Source: a bacterium
Lineage (GTDB): Bacteria; Vulcanimicrobiota; Vulcanimicrobiia; Vulcanimicrobiales; Vulcanimicrobiaceae
DNA: 64,000 nucleotides
NCBI GenBank assembly: GCA_021832345.1
Contig: JAKBKY010000001.1
Location: forward strand, 396,385 to 460,384
Reading direction: 5' to 3'
The first letter of the stretch is position 1. Every line of letters begins with the position of its first letter. The position numbers and the translations under genes were made by a program. The notes beneath the pieces are model-generated. The model was not told the origin of the DNA. It did no database searches and was given only the letters and a program-made list of their open reading frames with translations. Positions 37,644-47,635 of the stretch are shown piece by piece.

Positions 37644-38839
37644 TTGAGGTCCTCGCCCAATCCATCGCGGGCCAAGACGAGCGCAAGCGCCATCGTCGGC
37701 AGCCATAAGCCGAAGATCACCACGCTCACCGTGTCGATCAAACCCTGTACCAGCGTTCCGAAGAGTCCCGCCGCGGCGGCCAGCGCCAACTGGACGTGGA
37801 TCGGTCGAGCCGCGCGCAGGCGCTGCAGGAGCGTCTGAGCGAAGCGCCACCAGGTCCACACCACCGCGGCAACGCCGATAATACCGGTCTCGGCGAAGAT
37901 CGTCAGGATAGCGTTGTGCGCGTGGAAGGCAACAGCATCGCCGTCGGGAACGCGCACGTGGGCATAGATCCGCGAGAAGTCCAGCGGTCCGACGCCGGTC
38001 AACGGGAAGCGAGCGATCGCCGAGAAGGCGGCGCGCCAGATGGATAAGCGCGTGTAGTTTTCGCTTGGATTATGGTGGAAGTTGAAGACCGCCAAGACGG
38101 CCAGGACGCTCACGGCGACGACCGCCACCGCTGAGCGCCACCTCATGCGTCCCGTGACCAGCCCATAGAACGCAACCACGGAGGCGAAGCCCACCCAGCC
38201 GGTCCGTGAGAAGCTCAAGACCAGCGCCAGCAGACCCGACCCAATCCCGCACCATGCGACGTAACGCAGCGCCGGCCGCCGCGTGGTCGTTGCCACCGCA
38301 TAGGCCAGCGGCAGAAAAACGATGAGGTAACCCGCCAACTCGCCCGGCAACACAAAGGTACCGATTGCTCGCCCGTGTCCAATCGTGTACTGCGCGGCAG
38401 GCCGGTGGGTGAGCACCATCACGATCGCAACGAGTGAGCCGAGTGTTCCCGTCGCCAGATACGACCACCAGATGGCGGAAGCGACGTGTGGCCGGCGGTA
38501 GAAGCGCAAGATGCTCAGGTGCCAAACGATGCCCAAGCCGAAGACGCCGACGAAGAGCGTGCCGGCCAGCGGATCGAGGCCGAGCAACGCGGCGAGGACC
38601 GCCGAACCAAGCCACGCGAGCAGCGGGATAAGCGTGGGCGGCGCCTCCCGTGGCGCCTGCAACAACAGCACGCCCGCATAGATCGCCGCTAGCACCATGG
38701 CGGCAAGTAAGACGGCGGCGGCGTTCGGGGGGATGACCGACACCCCGGGAACGCTCACCCCGGCGAGCATCACAAACGAAGGGAAGAGTGGAAGTGCCCC
38801 ATGCACGAGGGCAAACACGCTCGGTAGTGCGCGTTTCAC
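37640..38839 (-). CDS. O-antigen ligase-like (WaaL/Wzy_C) membrane protein
   Basis: 399 aa with about ten membrane helices. The Wzy_C/O-antigen ligase region has LSFSRTGWVGFASVV, the large periplasmic loop (SENYTRLSIWRAAFSAIARF, PLTGVGPLDFSRIYAHVR), and HAHNAILTIFAETGIIG with the conserved His. Ligases attach O-antigen to lipid A-core; polymerases look the same, so the exact reaction is uncertain. Its neighbours make and export lipid A, which favours the ligase role. Confidence 0.83.
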   Translation of the reverse strand: MKRALPSVFALVHGALPLFPSFVMLAGVSVPGVSVIPPNAAAVLLAAMVLAAIYAGVLLLQAPREAPPTLIPLLAWLGSAVLAALLGLDPLAGTLFVGVFGLGIVWHLSILRFYRRPHVASAIWWSYLATGTLGSLVAIVMVLTHRPAAQYTIGHGRAIGTFVLPGELAGYLIVFLPLAYAVATTTRRPALRYVAWCGIGSGLLALVLSFSRTGWVGFASVVAFYGLVTGRMRWRSAVAVVAVSVLAVLAVFNFHHNPSENYTRLSIWRAAFSAIARFPLTGVGPLDFSRIYAHVRVPDGDAVAFHAHNAILTIFAETGIIGVAAVVWTWWRFAQTLLQRLRAARPIHVQLALAAAAGLFGTLVQGLIDTVSVVIFGLWLPTMALALVLARDGLGEDLK

Positions 38840-40008
38840 GACGCCTCCTCGAGCATCGCGGCAAGGTAGCGGGCTATCGCAGAGGCGCCGCCCGGCGGCC
38901 CCATGCGCTCTCGACCGATGCGGCCCATCCGCTCGCGCTGCGCTGGGTCAGCCAGCAGGGCGCCGATCTGTGCGCTCGTCGTTGCGCGATCGTCCGGGAG
39001 CATCAGGAGCGCACCATCCAGCAGGCCCCGCTGGCGACGACGATACCAGGCCGACTTCGACTCCCCGGGTGACACAAGCGCAACGACCGGGACGCCGGCC
39101 GCCGCTGCAGCCTCGTTTGCCGTACCGGCCTGCCCAACGACCAGCGTAGCCCGGGCCAGGAGTGAACCAAGGCTCCCCTGCCAAGCGCGTATGCGTACCG
39201 CGTGCGTAGACGGATCGATCAGCTCGAAGGCGACGGGCGCATCGGTACCGGAACGCACCTGCCAACCGTCGCTCGCAAGGACGCTCGCGAAGCGAGTCGC
39301 CTGCAGCCCGGGTGCAAGCGAGAGCACTCCACCGATCGAGGGTTGCCGGCGCGCGAGTTCCCTGACCGTCGCGGTCAACGCGCGTGCGTGCTCGTACGCG
39401 CTCTCGCGACTGCCGGGAAAGAGCGCCAGCGTCGGGGCGAAGCCGTTCACGGCCGCTTGGACCCGCGAATCGTCATCGGTGTAGAGATCGGCGATGACAT
39501 TCCCGGGCGCAAGCGCAGGAACACGCTGTTGTTCAAGTCGCTGTGCGGTCGCCGAGTCCCTAACGAAGACGTACCGCGCACGACGCAAGACCTGACGCTC
39601 ACACGGCCCATAGGGAGCTACGTAGACGCTCTTGGCCGTCCCGACAAAACAGGTTGGAGCGCCGACCAGCAGGCTCATGCCAAGCGCGTAGATATCGCCG
39701 ACGGCGACGACCGCTGCATACCGCCGGTGCAAGGAGCGCAAGAGGCGTACTTGCTCGAGAGTGATCCCGATGAGACCGCTGCGCAGATCGGCAAGGATGT
39801 TGCGCAGGTTGAGCATCGCGATGAGGCCGCCGCTTGGCATCGCGGCCCGTGGCCCGACCTCCCGCATCGACGACGGCAAGGCAAAATCACCGACGAGCGC
39901 CAGGTGGTCGCAGCTCACGTTCGGGCGGAGCACTCCAAGCTCTTGCGCAATTCGGGCGGCAATGGCCTGCTCACCGTGACCGTTGCTCACCATCAGGAGC
40001 GCCGTCAT
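38836..40008 (-). CDS. Lipid-A-disaccharide synthase-related (LpxB-like) glycosyltransferase
   Basis: 390 aa from ATG 40008; a further 52 in-frame codons upstream look non-coding. It begins LMVSNGHGEQAIAARIAQEL and has the LpxB/MurG-like GT-B pattern PTLALFPGSRESAYEHA (phosphate loop), ARATLVVGQAGTANEAAAAAG and GVPVVALVSPGESKSAWYRRR. It is a distant paralogue of LpxB, as found in cyanobacteria under 'lipid-A-disaccharide synthase-related'. Its substrate is not known. It precedes and overlaps the ligase gene. Confidence 0.8.
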   Translation of the reverse strand: MTALLMVSNGHGEQAIAARIAQELGVLRPNVSCDHLALVGDFALPSSMREVGPRAAMPSGGLIAMLNLRNILADLRSGLIGITLEQVRLLRSLHRRYAAVVAVGDIYALGMSLLVGAPTCFVGTAKSVYVAPYGPCERQVLRRARYVFVRDSATAQRLEQQRVPALAPGNVIADLYTDDDSRVQAAVNGFAPTLALFPGSRESAYEHARALTATVRELARRQPSIGGVLSLAPGLQATRFASVLASDGWQVRSGTDAPVAFELIDPSTHAVRIRAWQGSLGSLLARATLVVGQAGTANEAAAAAGVPVVALVSPGESKSAWYRRRQRGLLDGALLMLPDDRATTSAQIGALLADPAQRERMGRIGRERMGPPGGASAIARYLAAMLEEAS

Positions 40009-40160
40009 ATCGCGCCTAGGAGTTTGTCGGGCTTGGCCCATTTTTGGATCCGGAGGCGATTTTTGTTCGGAGACGAGGCGCGAAGAGGGAGCCGCCGTAG
40101 CTTCGTGACCGATGAGCAACGATGTATTCGGCAAAAAGCGACCCGGAGACGGAAAGGTGC

Positions 40161-40892
40161 TCACGTCCGGCAGACTCCCAAAAGCGGCAACAGCTCACTG
40201 CGCTCGACGACGAAACGCTTGCGCGGCTCGTTGTACGATAGCTCGGTACGCGAAACGTAACGCGCGTAGGGACCGGCATGGACGATCGGGACCTCGTTCG
40301 CGTACTCCGGCTCGTGTAAGGTGTCATGACTGTGCCCACCCAAGATAAGGTCGATCCTTGGAACCTTCGCGGCAAGCTGCCGGTCGAGCTTCAGGCCGAC
40401 ATGCGAGAGAACGACCAGGGCCTCCCCGGGCGCAACCCGTGCGGCATACGGCGCCACCGCGGCCCACGGTTCCAAGAAGCGCCAACCGAAGATCCGTTCC
40501 CAAAAGCTTGCCGCCGGATACTGCATAATGAGCAGGCCCAGGACATGAACCCGTATGCCGTCTTGCTCGAGAATCAGCGAAGGAACAAACGGCAGGGGAC
40601 GACCCCGAAGATCCAAGAGATTGCTGCAGACGAGCGGGTGCTGCATCCGGCGCGCACGTGCCGCGAGCAATGGAGCGATGTAGTGAAACTCGCGGTTGCC
40701 GATTGCCTGAGCATCGTAACCGGCAGCATCGAACTCGGCCAGCACCGGTTCGTCGCGACGATAGATCGTTTGGCTGCCGCGCAGACTGTCGCCGCAGTCG
40801 AAGAGCAACCCGGGGCGCTGCGCTCGTAGCTCTCGTAAGCGCCCCGAGAAACCGCGCCGCCCGTGTATGTCGCTGGTGTGGTAGATGAGCAC
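40161..40892 (-). CDS. Calcineurin-like metallophosphoesterase coupled to lpxB
   Basis: 243 aa from GTG 40892, which shares one base with the lpxB stop TAG. Metal-binding motifs appear in order: TSDIHG (D8, H10), FDCGDS (D35), GNREF (N66), LSHVG (H164) and GGHSHD (H187, H189). The family's GNH(E/D) His is Arg here. The fold resembles the 5'-nucleotidase/UshA catalytic domain without the C-terminal substrate domain; no signal peptide is seen, so the enzyme is probably cytosolic. It sits in the lpx cluster, where an LpxH-like UDP-2,3-diacylglucosamine hydrolase is otherwise missing; that assignment is a hypothesis. Confidence 0.8.
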   Translation of the reverse strand: MLIYHTSDIHGRRGFSGRLRELRAQRPGLLFDCGDSLRGSQTIYRRDEPVLAEFDAAGYDAQAIGNREFHYIAPLLAARARRMQHPLVCSNLLDLRGRPLPFVPSLILEQDGIRVHVLGLLIMQYPAASFWERIFGWRFLEPWAAVAPYAARVAPGEALVVLSHVGLKLDRQLAAKVPRIDLILGGHSHDTLHEPEYANEVPIVHAGPYARYVSRTELSYNEPRKRFVVERSELLPLLGVCRT

Positions 40893-42010
40893 TACTTCGA
40901 CCCGGTCTGGGCCAGCGCTACGGCGAAACGTGCCGTTTGCTCCAGTGCGTCGCTGGGCCCTAGCGCCTGGCGCAACTCGTCCAATCCGGCTCGCTGGACG
41001 CTCGGATCGACCATCAGGGAGTCCATCGCCGCTGCCAGAAGATCGGGCGTTGCGCGCTCTTGAAGAAACTCCGGGATCAACTCGCGGCCCAACACAAGGT
41101 TTGGAAGCGTGATATAGGTGCCGCGGTAGATTTTTCGCGCGTGCTTGACGAGCAACGGTGAGATCACGTAGAGCGCGATCGACACAACGCCCAGCAAGGC
41201 ACACTCCAAGACCGCGGTGCCGGAGGCCACCCATGCCGCGTCCGCCTCCTGCGTCGCTTCGACCACGCCGCGCACCACGCGCACGTCTTGCAGCGCAGCT
41301 TTCGCCAAAGCCTTGCGCACAAGGCTCTGGGCGCCACCCTCCGCAACGCCTATCGTCACGTGCAACCGCGGGCGTTTGACACGAAGTCGTTCGACCGCAG
41401 CCAACAGAATCGGCAGATGTGCACGAATCTCTCCGCGGCGACTTCCGGGTAAGAGCGCCACTCGCCCGCCGTCGATGGGAGCCTCGGCCCGCGGATGACG
41501 AGCGCTATACCGAGCAGCCAACGGATGCCCGAAGTAGACGACGGGCAGGCGCTGCTGCTTATAAAACTCGTACTGGTGTAAGAACGCCGTCACCGGAACG
41601 CATGCAGCCGCAACGCGGTGCGCACGCACTCCATCGTCCAACCACGCCGCGGGCGGAAACCAATACAGGATGGCCCCTCGATAGCCCAGGCGCTCGCGCA
41701 ACGTGCCGGCTAAGCGCACGTTGAAGGCCCCGAAGTCGACTAACACGAGTAGATCCGGACGGGTCCGTGCGATGTGTGCGGCCGTCAGCCACATGATGCT
41801 CAGCAGTTTCGGGATGCGCGGCAATGCGGCCATCGGGCCCATGCTCGCCCAGCCGGTATGATCGCGCCAGATCCGAAAGCCGCAGGCGCGCATAGCGGCA
41901 GCACCGATGCCTTCGAACTCGGCTTGTGGATCGAAGCCCCGCATGGCTTGCGCCAAGAGCGTGGCGTTCAGTTCGCCGGAAGCTTCGCCGGTTGAGATGA
42001 AGTAGCGCAC
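40892..42010 (-). CDS. lpxB: Lipid-A-disaccharide synthase
   Basis: 372 aa GT19 enzyme joining UDP-2,3-diacylglucosamine and lipid X. The opening YFISTGEASGELNATLLAQAM and the segments LVDFGAFNVRLAGTLRERLG, LPVVYFGHPLA, VALLPGSRRGEIRAHLPILL and VASGTAVLECALLGV match LpxB throughout. GTG start at 42010, 7 bases after lpxA. Cytosolic, membrane-associated. Confidence 0.96.
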   Translation of the reverse strand: MRYFISTGEASGELNATLLAQAMRGFDPQAEFEGIGAAAMRACGFRIWRDHTGWASMGPMAALPRIPKLLSIMWLTAAHIARTRPDLLVLVDFGAFNVRLAGTLRERLGYRGAILYWFPPAAWLDDGVRAHRVAAACVPVTAFLHQYEFYKQQRLPVVYFGHPLAARYSARHPRAEAPIDGGRVALLPGSRRGEIRAHLPILLAAVERLRVKRPRLHVTIGVAEGGAQSLVRKALAKAALQDVRVVRGVVEATQEADAAWVASGTAVLECALLGVVSIALYVISPLLVKHARKIYRGTYITLPNLVLGRELIPEFLQERATPDLLAAAMDSLMVDPSVQRAGLDELRQALGPSDALEQTARFAVALAQTGSK

Positions 42011-42017
42011 GCGCGCC

Positions 42018-42785
42018 TCACTTCAAGATTCCGCGTTGCGAAGGCGCCTCCAGAAATGCCACAAACTCCCGGCCGGCCTCCGTCTGTACCGACGCTTTAA
42101 TCGCGTCCATCGCTTGCGAAACATTGTGCCGAGGATCGTAGAGCACTTTATAGGCTTGTTTGACATCCTTGCGCTCCTCAACCGAGAAACCGGCTCGACG
42201 CAACCCAACGGAGTTCAAGCCATAGGGTTGAGCCGGATTACCTTCCACGAGAATGAACGGGGGGACGTCCTTTGTGAGCTTCGAAGCGCCGCCGACAAAC
42301 GCATAGCGTCCGACGCGCGTAAACTGATGGAGGCCAGCCATGCCACCGATCGTAGCGCAGTCGTCGATCTCGCAGTGGCCGGCAAGCTGAGCGAGATTGC
42401 TCATCGTGACGCCGTTGCCGACCCGGCAGTTGTGTGCGATGTGAACGTATGCCAGTAACAAGCAGTCGCTGCCTACCGACGTGACGCCGTCCTCTCCGGT
42501 AGCACGCTGAATGCTGACATACTCGCGAATGACGGTACGGTCGCCAATCTTTGTGAAAGCACGTTCGCCTACGTACTTGCGATCCTGGGATGCCGAACCG
42601 ATGGTTGCGAATGGATAAACGTTACAGTCGTTGCCGATCTCGGTCCATCCGTTCACCACAATGTGCGCTTGGAGCACCGTACCGCTGCCAACAGATACAT
42701 CTTCTCCGATGACGCAGTACGGACCAACTTCAACGCCGCGTTCGACGCGTGCGTTTGGGTGGACGATCGCCGTTGGATGAATCAT
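42018..42785 (-). CDS. lpxA: Acyl-ACP--UDP-N-acetylglucosamine O-acyltransferase
   Basis: 255 aa, the left-handed beta-helix enzyme starting lipid A synthesis. Hexapeptide repeats run from IHPTAIVHPNARVERGV on; the catalytic His is in YVHIAHNCRVG (H118), and FATIGSASQDRKYVGE is diagnostic of LpxA rather than LpxD. The C-terminal helical domain carries GLNSVGLRRAGFS. It overlaps fabZ by ATGA. Confidence 0.96.
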   Translation of the reverse strand: MIHPTAIVHPNARVERGVEVGPYCVIGEDVSVGSGTVLQAHIVVNGWTEIGNDCNVYPFATIGSASQDRKYVGERAFTKIGDRTVIREYVSIQRATGEDGVTSVGSDCLLLAYVHIAHNCRVGNGVTMSNLAQLAGHCEIDDCATIGGMAGLHQFTRVGRYAFVGGASKLTKDVPPFILVEGNPAQPYGLNSVGLRRAGFSVEERKDVKQAYKVLYDPRHNVSQAMDAIKASVQTEAGREFVAFLEAPSQRGILK

Positions 42786-43261
42786 GCGTGCAAGACCACA
42801 GCGTCCGCACCGAACATCCGGGGATCAGAGGCGATCGAGAACATGAGTTCGGCCGCGCAGACAAGTTGTCCGTCAACGTTTGCTTCGGCACTCACCCAGC
42901 CGATATTTCGGCGATGGCGCAACAATTGAACCTCCATCATCAGCCGATCGCCTGGGACGACGGGGCGACGGAACTTCGCTTTGTTGATACCGGCAAGATA
43001 GGGCGTCTTGCGCGAAAACTCGCCGGGTTCCAGCAGGACCGCACCGCCCAACTGGGCCATCGCCTCGATCATGAGTACCCCGGGGAAGAGCGGGTTGTTC
43101 GGGAAGTGGCCCGTGAAGATCGGCTCGTTGTACGTGATATTCTTGTATCCGACGGCACGTACCCCAGGCTCGAGTTCGACGATCCGGTCGATCAAGAGGA
43201 AGGGGTAGCGATGCGGCAAGATCTCCATGATCTGTCGAATGTCGAGTTCAGCCACGGACAT
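42782..43261 (-). CDS. fabZ: 3-hydroxyacyl-ACP dehydratase FabZ
   Basis: 159 aa hot-dog fold dehydratase. IMEILPHRYPFLLIDRIVE and EPIFTGHFPNNPLFPGVLMI with catalytic H52 and E66 (in IEAMAQ) are the FabZ hallmarks. It competes with LpxA/LpxD for 3-hydroxyacyl-ACP, so its place between lpxC and lpxA is common in bacteria. ATG 43261 lies 14 bases inside the lpxC end; the longer in-frame extension is lpxC shadow. Separate gene, not the LpxC-FabZ fusion of Bacteroidetes. Confidence 0.96.
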   Translation of the reverse strand: MSVAELDIRQIMEILPHRYPFLLIDRIVELEPGVRAVGYKNITYNEPIFTGHFPNNPLFPGVLMIEAMAQLGGAVLLEPGEFSRKTPYLAGINKAKFRRPVVPGDRLMMEVQLLRHRRNIGWVSAEANVDGQLVCAAELMFSIASDPRMFGADAVVLHA

Positions 43262-44105
43262 GACTCCCAGGGGCGAGGTCGGCGAGAAAGCGTTGCCGGA
43301 GCGCGCGCACGGCTCGAGCGTGCAGCTCGTGCCCGCTCTTGATAGCGACGATCTCCGCGAGGGGCCAGAGCCCAAGTAAAGAGAGATCGCCGAGCAAATC
43401 CAAGACCTTGTGCCGCACGACTTCGTTCTGCCAGCGCAGAGGCTGCATGGGGCCATCCTGGGTGAAGACGAGTGCATTCTCCAAGCTTCCGCCCAGCGCC
43501 AAGCCACGTGTGCGCAGGGCTTCAACTTCATGCAAATAGCCAAAGGTGCGCGCCGGGGCGATCTGCCGGGCATACTCCTGCGCAGCAATCTCGCCGTCAA
43601 AAAACTGCACCCCGATCGGTGCTGGAAAATCAGCCACAAAACGTACGCGGAAGCGTTCGGAGGGCAGGGCGATCACCAACTGCTCCCCGCGCGCAACGAC
43701 CAGAGGCTGGGTGATGACCAGGAGCGGGCGCGCTCGCGCCTGTTCGAGGATGCCGGCGCATTCTATCGCCTCCACGAACGGGCGGCCACTGCCGTCCAAG
43801 ACAGGAATCTCGGGACCGCGCACGTGGATATCGGCGTTGCTCACGCCCATGGCAAAGAGGGCGGAGAGCAGGTGCTCTACGGTTGAGACGCTGACCCCAT
43901 CTCGACCGATCACGGTCGCTCGCGAGGTATCGACGATATACTCGGCCAGGGCCGGAACGCGCAGATGTCCATCCAGCACAAAGGTGATGCCGGCGTCGAT
44001 CCCGGCTGGACGTACCTCGATGGCGCAGCCGGCCCCCGTATGAAGCCCGACGCCATCGAAAGCACAGGGCCCGCAGAGCGTGGCCTGCGCTATCTCGGTC
44101 GGCAC
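43248..44105 (-). CDS. lpxC: UDP-3-O-acyl-N-acetylglucosamine deacetylase
   Basis: 285 aa zinc deacetylase, the committed step of lipid A synthesis. Motifs: FDGVGLHTG, TVEHLLSAL with zinc ligand H78, RHKVLDLLGDL with H232 and D236, and the catalytic SGHELHA (H259). GTG 44105 puts the zinc His at 78, next to H79 in E. coli; the longer GTG at 44153 would overlap lpxD by 38 bases and add residues without homology. Confidence 0.95.
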   Translation of the reverse strand: MPTEIAQATLCGPCAFDGVGLHTGAGCAIEVRPAGIDAGITFVLDGHLRVPALAEYIVDTSRATVIGRDGVSVSTVEHLLSALFAMGVSNADIHVRGPEIPVLDGSGRPFVEAIECAGILEQARARPLLVITQPLVVARGEQLVIALPSERFRVRFVADFPAPIGVQFFDGEIAAQEYARQIAPARTFGYLHEVEALRTRGLALGGSLENALVFTQDGPMQPLRWQNEVVRHKVLDLLGDLSLLGLWPLAEIVAIKSGHELHARAVRALRQRFLADLAPGSHVRG

Positions 44106-44115
44106 GTTTGGGTGT

Positions 44116-45138
44116 TCAGTCGCGCGCGCGCGACCGTTCGAGGGCTTCGACACGAGCGATTAACTTCGGGAGGTTGCGGAGTTGGACCTCGAACCGAAGA
44201 CGCTCTCGATGCTCGCGGGCGGGAGTCCCGGAGACCATGGTTCCATCGGGGATATCGCCCCATACGTGCGAGCCGCCGGCAATGGTGACGCCCGACCCAA
44301 CCGTGAGGTGTCCCTTGAAACCGACCTGCCCTCCGACGCGAACGAAGTCCCCGATAACGGTGGTCCCCGCGAGTCCGCTCAGAGCTGCGATCGCACCGTG
44401 GCGCCCCACGCGGCAGTTATGACCGATCTGCACGAGATTATCGATCTTCGTTCCGCAACCGATGGTCGTACTGCCGGTCTGAGCGCGATCGATGCACGTG
44501 TTGACACCGACCTCGACATCGTCCCCGAGCACGACGTTGCCTATCTGGGGAATCCGCCGCAGGCGATTCTCCATGAACGCCCAGCCGAACCCTTCGCTGC
44601 CAACCGTGCTGCCGGCATGGAGGACCACGTTGCTTCCGAGGACGCAACGGTCCATAACCCGCGCGTGAGGGTGCAGCCAACAGCTCGACCCGAGCCTCGC
44701 GTCGGGACCGACGTACGCGCCAACGCCGATAATGCTCCCCGGATCGACACATGCGTGCGCCCCAACGAAGGCGTGTGCATCGATGTAAACGTCGTCAGCC
44801 AGGATTGCCGTCGGATCGATGACGGCGCTCGGATGGCGATAGGGCCCCTGTGGTCTCGCCGGCTCGAAGGCCGTCAACAGCGTTGCCAGGGCCGCTCGGA
44901 CGTTGCCGACCACGAGCAAGGGCTTCGAGTATGTCGCACCTTCGACGAGCGCGGTCTCAACGAGGATACCTGCTGCACTCCCCTCAAGCGCCCGTTCCAG
45001 ATATCGCTCGTCCGTGGCAAAGGTCAGGGTCGTATCGTCGGCATCCTCGACCGCAGCGATGCCTGCGATCAAAACGCTCGCATCCCCGACGGTACGACCG
45101 TCGACGCGCGTCGCAAGCTGGGCCAGGGTCCCGAGCAT
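44116..45138 (-). CDS. lpxD: UDP-3-O-acylglucosamine N-acyltransferase
   Basis: 340 aa. N-terminal uridine-binding domain (LATRVDGRTVGDASVLIAGI; LTFATDERYL), then a left-handed beta-helix of hexapeptide repeats with GSTVGSEGFGWAFME and the catalytic His in LVQIGHNCRVG (H240), and a C-terminal helix. It adds the second 3-hydroxyacyl chain in lipid A synthesis. Confidence 0.96.
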   Translation of the reverse strand: MLGTLAQLATRVDGRTVGDASVLIAGIAAVEDADDTTLTFATDERYLERALEGSAAGILVETALVEGATYSKPLLVVGNVRAALATLLTAFEPARPQGPYRHPSAVIDPTAILADDVYIDAHAFVGAHACVDPGSIIGVGAYVGPDARLGSSCWLHPHARVMDRCVLGSNVVLHAGSTVGSEGFGWAFMENRLRRIPQIGNVVLGDDVEVGVNTCIDRAQTGSTTIGCGTKIDNLVQIGHNCRVGRHGAIAALSGLAGTTVIGDFVRVGGQVGFKGHLTVGSGVTIAGGSHVWGDIPDGTMVSGTPAREHRERLRFEVQLRNLPKLIARVEALERSRARD

Positions 45139-45144
45139 GGGTTC

Positions 45145-45552
45145 CTACGAAGAGGGCGAGGGTGACGGTTTCTCGACGATGCCGAGAGCCTTCTCGACCT
45201 GGGCCGTGATACTGACTCCGCCATAGCCCACGCCCTCACGCGTGAGGACGAGCGTCAGGTGTTGTTTGCTTGCGATCTTCGCGGCTGCGTCTCGAACCTG
45301 ATTCGAAAGGTTGCGTTCGATCGTCGCATACTTCACCTGCAGGGCAACGGCCTGGCGAATCTTCTGCTGCTTACCGACCTTGCTCTTGACAAGTGCTTCT
45401 TCTGCAGCGCTGAGGCTCTGCTGTGCCGCATTGTAAGCCGGCCAGTTTGCCGTGATGCGCGACACGTTGACCAAGCCCACCGGGCTCGATGTTCCGCACG
45501 CGGCCAGAAGACAGGCCATACCTAGGGAGGCAAAAACCAATTGCTTTTTCAC
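45145..45552 (-). CDS. OmpH/Skp-like lipoprotein, short
   Basis: 135 aa with a lipobox in LLAACG (Cys 19), then VGLVNVSRITANWPAYNAAQ and a helical stretch with a C-terminal strand LTLVLTREGVGYGG, the Skp fold order. Skp is normally a soluble periplasmic trimer; this one is lipid-anchored. It overlaps the next upstream OmpH-like lipoprotein by 4 bases and directly precedes lpxD, as skp does in proteobacteria. Confidence 0.78.
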   Translation of the reverse strand: MKKQLVFASLGMACLLAACGTSSPVGLVNVSRITANWPAYNAAQQSLSAAEEALVKSKVGKQQKIRQAVALQVKYATIERNLSNQVRDAAAKIASKQHLTLVLTREGVGYGGVSITAQVEKALGIVEKPSPSPSS

Positions 45553-46835
45553 TTGTTTAAACTCTCGATGTCCTTCGTGACTTGATTCGTGAGATCGTAA
45601 CCGCCGCTTGCGGCGATAACGCCTTGGAAAACGACTCGGAGTCCGAGCCTACGCGCGACGCGCTGTGCGTCGTTCCGAACCTGGGTCTCCATCTGACGGT
45701 AAAGAGACACCCGCCGGCGTTCGAGTTTGGCCAGCTCCTGCCCGGCAGCGCCGGTTGCCCCTGCATTCGCGCCGGTAAGGGCGGCATATTGCCGGTCGAT
45801 ATCGGCTTTTGTGCTGTCGTAGTTCGCGATGATCTTCTGTGCTTGGGCTTCGAACTCGCCGGTGAACTGATGGTGAATGGTCTCGATCTTTGCTTTGGTT
45901 GCCGGCGAAAGATTCTGCGGGAGCGGCGCCGGGCCGAGGGCGCGCAACTTTGCCAGCACGGCGTCTCGTTGCATCGCGACCTTGCTCTGAGAATCGCGCT
46001 GAATGTTCTGGGCTTGCTGGGCGATCTGCGCGTTCGTTCTGGCCTGGAGCTGCTTGCCGTATGCCGTCAGGCTTGCCTTATGGCGGTTGCGCATCGCGTC
46101 GATCGCAGCCCGCTCGCGTTGCTCGATGGCTTTGAGCTCACCCTGTAGGCGCTTTTTGGTCGCACCGTCCAGCGCTAGATTCGACAGGCGCGTCTTGATC
46201 GCGACAACCTTTGGCGCATCCTGCTTTGATAACGAATAGGAGAGTTGCGCCTCTCTCTGCTGGTCTTCCATCACGCGCGCCTGATACTTTCGTGCTGCCT
46301 TGAGCTGGATCTGATGCGCGATCTTGGCGATAGTCGCACGATCCTCTCGCACCACGCTCTGCTGATAGCGCACGAAGCCTTGCGTCGCTTGCTTGGCAAT
46401 CGCTTGCGCTTGAGCGGCGGACGTTGCGCCCATCGACTGCCCGGCACGATCTCCCGCGCCCGTGTTCCCCACCGCGGCTAAAGCAGCGGCAATCGCTGCC
46501 CGTTCGCGTTGTTCGTAGTCTGCTCGCGTTTGAGCTAAGATGCGACTCGTTTGTTCGCCTGCCACTTTGAGTTCCTGGGCCAACTGCGTCGTTTGCGCGG
46601 CGATTCCGGCGGTGGAGGGCGGCGGCGACCCGGCGTATTGAAGTTTAACGGCAGCGATGGCGTCGTTGAGCTTCGTAAGTTGCGGGTAGAGGGGATCGTG
46701 CTTGATCACCTGATCGACGCGAACGTACCCGACGCCGCGAATCTTCGCCGAGTTCACATCAACCCGAGCACAGCCGGCCATGAGTGCTGTCAACATTACG
46801 GCAACGACGAGCGCACGTTTATTTGAGAAGCGCAT
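45549..46835 (-). CDS. Long OmpH/Skp-like lipoprotein
   Basis: 428 aa from ATG 46835 (ATG 46844 is possible), overlapping the tandem-Skp gene end. Lipobox LMAGC, then GVGYVRVDQVIKHDPLYPQL (an OmpH-type start) and a very long helical region rich in Gln/Ala/Arg/Lys (about 60-350), ending in LGLRVVFQGVIAASGGYDLT, an OmpH-type closing strand. The helices are far longer than Skp tentacles, suggesting an extended coiled coil. Probably a periplasm-facing lipoprotein of the outer-membrane assembly pathway; function inferred from fold and place. Confidence 0.72.
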   Translation of the reverse strand: MRFSNKRALVVAVMLTALMAGCARVDVNSAKIRGVGYVRVDQVIKHDPLYPQLTKLNDAIAAVKLQYAGSPPPSTAGIAAQTTQLAQELKVAGEQTSRILAQTRADYEQRERAAIAAALAAVGNTGAGDRAGQSMGATSAAQAQAIAKQATQGFVRYQQSVVREDRATIAKIAHQIQLKAARKYQARVMEDQQREAQLSYSLSKQDAPKVVAIKTRLSNLALDGATKKRLQGELKAIEQRERAAIDAMRNRHKASLTAYGKQLQARTNAQIAQQAQNIQRDSQSKVAMQRDAVLAKLRALGPAPLPQNLSPATKAKIETIHHQFTGEFEAQAQKIIANYDSTKADIDRQYAALTGANAGATGAAGQELAKLERRRVSLYRQMETQVRNDAQRVARRLGLRVVFQGVIAASGGYDLTNQVTKDIESLNK

Positions 46836-47622
46836 TTTGGACATCTTTGGTGATGTCCACCCCCCCGAAGACCACGTCGGCACGATCGATCACAACCAGC
46901 AGACCCTTTTTCTTGGCGGCTGCGGCGGTGGCGGAACGGGTCTTGTCGACGAGCGGCTGCAACAACTGCTTCTGCTTGGCCGCAACCTTCTTATTGTACG
47001 ACGCAGCGACCGCAGTTCGCTCTGCGTTGTTCTTGGCCGCGTTGAAGCGTTGCTCGTAGATTTTGCGTTGGGCTTGCACGTACTTGCTGAGCTTCTGGTC
47101 GGCCTCCTTCACCGTGGGCAATGAGTCCAGGGCGTTGTTGTCGACGAAGCCGATCTCGGAGGGTGGCGGCGTTGCCGTCGGTGCCGTGATCGCCTGGCTG
47201 CTCGAGAGCAGCGCCACCACGGCCTTCGTAACGTTCTCTCCGCCGTAGACGACGATGCGCTTGTCGACAACGATGGAGAGGTGGTTCTTCGCGGCCACCT
47301 GTGCAATCGCCATCTGCGTGCGTTCCAGCACAGGTCCCATCAGTTCATTCTGCTTATCCGAAAACTTCTGCTGAAACTCCAGCGCGACGCGCTGGCGATC
47401 CGCATCGGTCTTGGCGCCTTTCATGGCCGCCACGAACTGGCGATCGAGAACCGCCTTGGCTTGAGCCAGTTGAGTATTGGCCTTGGCAAACGTGGGCAGA
47501 CTGCCGACCTGCGCCTGGTTGAGGTACCCCACGCCAGTAAGGTCCGCGGCGATGGCGGCCGGGGTGAGCGCGACGGTCGCGACGGTTGCCGCAAGGCATA
47601 AATGAATAAAACGAGTTTTCAT
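46819..47622 (-). CDS. Exported tandem OmpH/Skp chaperone-like protein
   Basis: 267 aa from ATG 47622 (GGAG upstream). A signal peptide (VALTPAAIAA) precedes two OmpH repeats: residues ~30-145 (GVGYLNQAQVGSLPTFAKAN ... LSIVVDKRIVVYGGENVT) and ~160-267 (EIGFVDNNALDSLPTVKEAD ... LLVVIDRADVVFGGVDIT). Skp trimers normally have one such domain per chain. Encoded 13 bases after bamA, as expected for a chaperone of outer-membrane proteins. Confidence 0.85.
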   Translation of the reverse strand: MKTRFIHLCLAATVATVALTPAAIAADLTGVGYLNQAQVGSLPTFAKANTQLAQAKAVLDRQFVAAMKGAKTDADRQRVALEFQQKFSDKQNELMGPVLERTQMAIAQVAAKNHLSIVVDKRIVVYGGENVTKAVVALLSSSQAITAPTATPPPSEIGFVDNNALDSLPTVKEADQKLSKYVQAQRKIYEQRFNAAKNNAERTAVAASYNKKVAAKQKQLLQPLVDKTRSATAAAAKKKGLLVVIDRADVVFGGVDITKDVQNALLK

Positions 47623-47635
47623 GTCTCTCCGTGTC

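Follow-up and report, generated by a model that had tools for sequence, protein, structure and literature searches.

A candidate UDP-2,3-diacylglucosamine hydrolase of the UshA type, bearing the LpxH arginine, in the lpx cluster of Candidatus Eremiobacterota

The gene considered here lies in a stretch of 64,000 nucleotides (contig JAKBKY010000001.1, assembly GCA_021832345.1; the whole stretch is referred to as the window) from a genome of Candidatus Eremiobacterota (2.34 Mb, 98% complete, 11 contigs). It encodes a metallophosphoesterase (MPE) and stands in the order lpxD, lpxC, fabZ, lpxA, lpxB, MPE, a gene for an LpxB-related protein (TIGR03492) and a gene for an O-antigen-ligase-type protein (Table 1). 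The open reading frame (ORF) of the MPE begins with GTG at 40892-40890 and its stop codon ends at 40161 on the minus strand. A preliminary description of the window had recognised a calcineurin-type phosphoesterase between these positions, and both the ORF, which is exact and 243 residues long, and the Pfam model PF00149 (24.8 bits, narrowly above the cut-off of 21.5) agree with it; the base said to be common to the MPE start and the lpxB stop is also present, in the junction TAGTG. The contiguity claimed for the pathway genes lpxD to lpxB was borne out by NCBIfam models, lpxB scoring below its cut-off, while the word 'fused' in the title of that description was wrong, since the MPE is a separate, overlapping gene. 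On the evidence set out below, the MPE is probably a UDP-2,3-diacylglucosamine hydrolase of a fourth, non-orthologous class that would have converged on the arginine of LpxH.

The active site speaks for this assignment. Asp8, His10, Asp35, Asn66, His164, His187 and His189 are invariant in alignments of 49 and 44 rows, and their positions match the metal ligands of the superfamily. At residue 67, each of the 49 rows of the first alignment (48 distinct loci) has Arg; this set was collected by whole-protein similarity and therefore counts as independent evidence for this residue. Arg67 is also found in 44/44 rows of the second set, which, like the 80 related loci described below, was picked by a GNRE pattern and so offers no independent evidence; eight further lpx-linked copies carry Arg at this position as well. 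In 8/8 secreted-type paralogues of the phylum, the motif is GNHE or GNHD; these proteins are approximately 490-530 residues long (one lies within a longer open frame) and form a clade apart from the lpx-linked copies with 100/100 support. The GNR reading of the motif given in the preliminary description is thus confirmed, GNRE standing where GNHE is usual; the 'altered chemistry' that it inferred from this motif can be put more narrowly, since the literature reports the same substitution only for LpxH. Among the metallophosphoesterases examined by Opiyo et al., the change from His to Arg was found only in LpxH (PMC3087551), and the same uniqueness was noted by Okada et al. (PMC5016852), so that the motif is the LpxH signature on a different branch of the superfamily. 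In Pseudomonas aeruginosa LpxH, Arg80 forms a bidentate salt bridge to the phosphate of lipid X, which is the former beta-phosphate of the substrate (PMC5016852).

That branch was indicated by both profile and structure comparisons. The AlphaFold2 (AF2) model of the MPE, built with 44 sequences, has a predicted local distance difference test score (pLDDT) of 96.6 and a predicted template modelling score (pTM) of 0.93, and its best Foldseek matches are YunD, UshA and CD73. A profile search of the PDB gave 2.1e-27 for a Thermus 5'-nucleotidase, with CD73 and UshA at similar values. The best NCBIfam models are SoxB, UshA-like and 5'-nucleotidase, and because each scores far under its own cut-off, no curated family names the MPE. 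Sequence and predicted fold thus place the protein in the UshA/CD73/SoxB branch rather than in an LpxH-like ancestry. The SoxB thiosulfohydrolase model (TIGR04486) is the top NCBIfam match of the single sequence at 72.9 bits, but this is far under the cut-off of 550 bits and there is no sox context. The MPE shares the fold and sequence of the catalytic domain of UshA and CD73, but it differs from them in having GNR rather than GNH, in its gene being part of an lpx operon and in lacking a signal peptide and the 5_nucleotid_C domain (PF02872), which is absent from the MPE and from the whole window genome. Origin as a piece broken off a local UshA was rejected, given that the genome is devoid of 5_nucleotid_C and that the paralogues split off with the full support quoted above. 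E. coli UshA converts UDP-sugars to UMP and sugar-1-phosphate, and its NCBIfam name is UDP-sugar hydrolase; since such relatives already cleave UDP-sugars in this manner, the ancestral chemistry would have been close to what is needed.

The MPE has lost the C-terminal nucleotide-binding domain. Neither a signal peptide nor a transmembrane segment can be discerned in it (the highest 19-residue Kyte-Doolittle mean is 1.27), which makes the cytosolic location proposed in the preliminary description plausible and, together with the missing PF02872, argues that the protein is not a secreted nucleotidase. Its place within the 5'-nucleotidase branch, in both sequence and fold, would fit a nucleotidase of the cytosol, or a UDP-sugar hydrolase of general function, whose task is to remove the UMP or UDP that the pathway makes or to control the supply of UDP-GlcNAc. 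However, the nucleotide-binding domain is gone, all copies of the MPE have Arg instead of the catalytic His, and a housekeeping nucleotidase would not be expected to keep strictly to lpx genes in every class; we consider this alternative very unlikely.

Table 1. Features of the lpx cluster in the window
Feature	Coordinates	Strand	Remarks
MPE, candidate UDP-2,3-diacylglucosamine hydrolase	40161..40892	-	243 residues; UshA/5'-nucleotidase-type metallophosphoesterase domain standing alone; GNRE motif
TAGTG overlap	40890..40894	-	lpxB stop TAG (40894-40892) and MPE GTG start with one common base; from the sequence
GNRE motif of MPE	40689..40700	-	residues 65-68, GGC AAC CGC GAG; Arg67 instead of the usual His
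lpxB, lipid-A-disaccharide synthase	40892..42010	-	PF02684 5.9e-60; TIGR00215 166.6 bits, below the cut-off of 190.25
LpxB-related protein (TIGR03492)	38836..40008	-	TIGR03492 224.5 bits, above the cut-off of 219.2; frame open up to GTG at 40164
lpxA	42018..42785	-	NF003657 and TIGR01852 over cut-off
fabZ (approximate start)	42782..43261	-	NF000582 and TIGR01750 over cut-off
lpxC	43248..44153	-	TIGR00325 236.4 bits, above the cut-off of 187.25
lpxD	44116..45138	-	NF002060 and TIGR01853 over cut-off

The enzymes that usually perform the hydrolase step were not recognised in this phylum. Profile searches were made with LpxH (TIGR01854) and LpxI (PF06230). There was no match to LpxI in the window genome or in any of 148 phylum genomes (the Caulobacter control was positive), and LpxH matched 0/148 phylum genomes (the E. 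coli control was positive). Hence, what the preliminary description noted for the window, that no LpxH or LpxI could be recognised, is true of the entire 98%-complete genome and of the phylum as a whole, and the profile check for these two enzymes that it had proposed beyond the window returned nothing in the genome or in the 148 phylum genomes. LpxB, which acts after this step, was found in 143/148 phylum genomes and in 85/85 of those of high quality. The phylum makes lipopolysaccharide (LPS)-type lipids, given that its cultured member Vulcanimicrobium alpinus is rich in 3-hydroxy fatty acids and has its outer membrane covered with LPS (PMC9758169). A search of the accessible literature on lipid A genes of Eremiobacterota found nothing relevant.

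The MPE is, like LpxB, found almost throughout the phylum. Orthologues were found in 142/149 phylum genomes and in 84/85 of the high-quality ones; the sole high-quality genome without one (G126) has an lpxB match that covers residues 1-186 only, as would be expected at an assembly gap. When the pattern [AT][MIV]GNRE[FL][HNS]Y was scanned over 84,980 species genomes, 107 stretches were obtained, of which 99 are relatives. Since this pattern requires GNRE, it cannot tell how common GNR is in general. The best 80 of the 99 relatives, which make up the 80 related loci, belong to Eremiobacterota or to mislabelled bins, the closest being labelled as Candidatus Eremiobacterota or as the related bins UBP9 and UBP12, and no Cyanobacteria are among these 80. 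At that scan sensitivity, the family looks confined to Eremiobacterota. In the fetched stretches, lpxB is present at 76/80 loci, and the LpxB-related gene lies immediately downstream of the MPE at 78/80, both exceptions being contig ends. In the class Eremiobacteria, the MPE directly follows lpxB. Outside this class, the distance is 0.4-3.9 kb and the intervening genes encode a further glycosyltransferase resembling LpxB, a methyltransferase resembling LmtA/ICMT, or both. The lpx cluster is split or inverted in three genomes (G141, G143, G144), where the MPE is found downstream of an lpxD, with the LpxB-related gene still following it; rearrangement has thus not broken its association with lpx genes. 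The MPE remains in an lpx transcription unit across all classes, despite insertions and inversions, and with orthologues in nearly all genomes, an invariant GNR and conserved lpx linkage, the observation is well beyond chance.

Several points weigh against the assignment. The tightest partner of the MPE is the LpxB-related gene and not lpxB. LpxK was found in only 3/148 phylum genomes, marginally and with one over the cut-off, and WaaA in 8/148, with two over the cut-off; since these enzymes are missing too, the absence of a Raetz-pathway enzyme alone demands no replacement. Synechococcus elongatus, used as a control, was negative for both the LpxH and the LpxI profiles and the MPE family was not seen there, so that other solutions exist; Cyanobacteria must use another one for the hydrolase step. 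In addition, the profile searches for the hydrolase step covered LpxH and LpxI only, and the helical insertion domain with which LpxH encloses lipid X (PMC5016852) has no counterpart in the MPE, whose AF2 secondary structure offers only a short helix at 130-135 instead of a four-helix insertion.

The missing LpxK and WaaA also imply that the lipid A pathway of the phylum is not standard. Both are gone from nearly all Eremiobacterota, while LpxB is kept, as are LpxA, LpxC and LpxD in the loci that were read. The pathway is short and resembles the four-enzyme set of Cyanobacteria and Dictyoglomi (PMC3087551); in Cyanobacteria, only lpxA, lpxC, lpxD and lpxB were reported, and a similar short pathway yields phosphate-free lipid A (PMC3087551). 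One explanation that draws on these facts is that the MPE serves the LpxB-related protein, for example by removing the phosphate at position 1 of the tetra-acyl disaccharide, or by hydrolysing another UDP-sugar lipid before sugar addition, and that UDP-diacylglucosamine is hydrolysed by another enzyme. Gene order fits this explanation at least as well, given the adjacency at 78/80 loci, and in two of the rearranged genomes (G143 and G144) the pair is intact downstream of an lpxD and away from lpxB; the precedent of phosphate-free cyanobacterial lipid A also speaks for it. On the other hand, TIGR03492 matches S. elongatus and Deinobacterium, lineages where the MPE is not seen. Phosphomonoesterases normally keep the His, and Arg at this position is known only from the diphosphate-cleaving LpxH (PMC5016852, PMC3087551). 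Moreover, the explanation leaves the hydrolase step empty, and an LpxB-related partner that takes lipid X as its acceptor would also fit a hydrolase role of the MPE. We regard a dedicated partnership of this kind as unlikely and prefer assignment of the MPE to the hydrolase step because of its arginine and because this step would otherwise have no enzyme. The suggestion of the preliminary description that the MPE performs this step is accordingly strengthened by the absence of LpxH and LpxI, the linkage and the arginine, and tempered by the closer LpxB-related partner, the non-standard pathway and the restriction of the profile searches to LpxH and LpxI; it is still a prediction from sequence.

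The step might also be performed by an enzyme encoded elsewhere, of the LpxG type or of another kind that escaped recognition, with a different role in lipid A modification for the MPE. LpxG shares only approximately 11% identity with LpxH and came to light by complementation alone (PMC4807358), and the MPE itself scored only 13.9 bits in the genome-wide PF00149 search, so that divergent phosphoesterases can be missed. However, only three other phosphoesterases were recognised by profile in the window genome (ApaH/YfcE-like, YfcE-like and TIGR00282-type), and all are in unrelated neighbourhoods, with none near lpx genes; we therefore consider such an enzyme very unlikely. A YfcE-like phosphoesterase of this genome (L002:1240-1971, minus strand) has GNTD and not GNHD.

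The simplest account is that the MPE acts in the manner of LpxH although it is no member of that family. LpxH is the UDP-2,3-diacylglucosamine hydrolase of beta- and gammaproteobacteria (TIGR01854). Like LpxH, the MPE is a two-metal calcineurin-type phosphoesterase with Arg in the GNH block, a predicted cytoplasmic location and a place at the step before LpxB, but it has no TIGR01854 match, is not orthologous and is of the UshA type in fold and sequence. In LpxH the GNR is followed by Asp, whereas the MPE has GNRE. The LpxG of Chlamydia (CT461) offers another parallel, as a lineage-specific phosphoesterase in the same gap where LpxH and LpxI are absent; it differs from the MPE, with its GNRE and no transmembrane segment, in having GNHD and an N-terminal transmembrane helix (PMC4807358). 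LpxI (PF06230) would share only the proposed reaction, its fold being unrelated to that of the MPE, which matches PF00149 instead.

In the proposed mechanism, the two-metal site (Asp8, His10, Asp35, Asn66, His164, His187 and His189) would activate a water molecule, and in the cytoplasm this water would attack UDP-2,3-diacylglucosamine at its alpha-phosphate, the position attacked by LpxH and LpxG, while Arg67 may hold the beta-phosphate in the manner of Arg80 of P. aeruginosa LpxH. The products would be UMP and lipid X, the latter serving as the acceptor for LpxB and perhaps also for the neighbouring LpxB-related enzyme. The segment QYPxxSxWERxFGWRFLxP (residues 124-142) is lineage-specific, well conserved, aromatic and basic, and may contact the membrane or the acyl chains. 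The binding of lipid by this segment is inferred, as are the substrate, the phosphate that is attacked and what Arg67 does. More tentatively, the phylum may possess a new type of pathway consisting of lpxA, lpxC, lpxD, a UshA-derived hydrolase with a convergent arginine, lpxB and another glycosyltransferase of the LpxB type (TIGR03492), with no LpxK or WaaA. In such a pathway, which we consider possible yet doubtful, a module of the MPE and the TIGR03492 protein would make lipid X and use it in a new glycosylation, and the lipid A would carry neither the 4'-phosphate nor 3-deoxy-D-manno-oct-2-ulosonic acid (Kdo).

The surroundings of the MPE vary in several respects. In the window, the conserved start of the LpxB-related gene (MTALLMVSNGHGE) lies approximately 150 bases past the MPE stop (40008-40164, minus strand), compared with less than 20 bases in most relatives. 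Its frame is open to a GTG that overlaps the MPE stop, which implies that the protein is extended by 52 residues at its N-terminus or that the DNA contains an insertion. Family f16 has a fusion of LpxB with a second LpxB-like glycosyltransferase (805-816 residues; L055:7529-9946, plus strand; L056:7520-9970, minus strand); elsewhere, the second protein is encoded by a separate gene right behind lpxB and has an NSPGEL motif near its start (e.g. L049:9020-10279 and L047:8511-9764). A gene resembling LmtA, the Leptospira lipid A 1-phosphate methyltransferase, and ICMT lies between lpxB and the MPE at L046:4751-5323 (minus strand), in a class other than Eremiobacteria, and points to retention and methylation of the 1-phosphate of lipid A in that class. 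Genes for a UDP-GlcNAc 3-dehydrogenase-like protein and a DegT-type aminotransferase are found between fabZ and lpxA in other classes (L043:10017-12178 and L049:12341-14448, both minus strand), hinting at a diamino-sugar (GlcN3N) lipid A in those classes; this gnnA/gnnB-like pair is absent from the cluster of the window. Finally, three consecutive ORFs between lpxD and a BamA-like gene (45145-47625, minus strand) resemble, by appearance, periplasmic proteins of the OmpH/Skp type.

The conversion of UDP-diacylglucosamine to lipid X is essential and has been invented at least three times, as LpxH, LpxI and LpxG, and to our knowledge some LPS-making phyla have no recognised enzyme for it. If the assignment of the MPE to this step is true, a fourth invention, from another phosphoesterase branch but with the arginine of LpxH, would suggest that the reaction favours that arginine. 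It would also supply the missing enzyme of an entire phylum, and a single residue could then serve as the signature by which the hydrolase is found in further lineages with neither LpxH nor LpxI.
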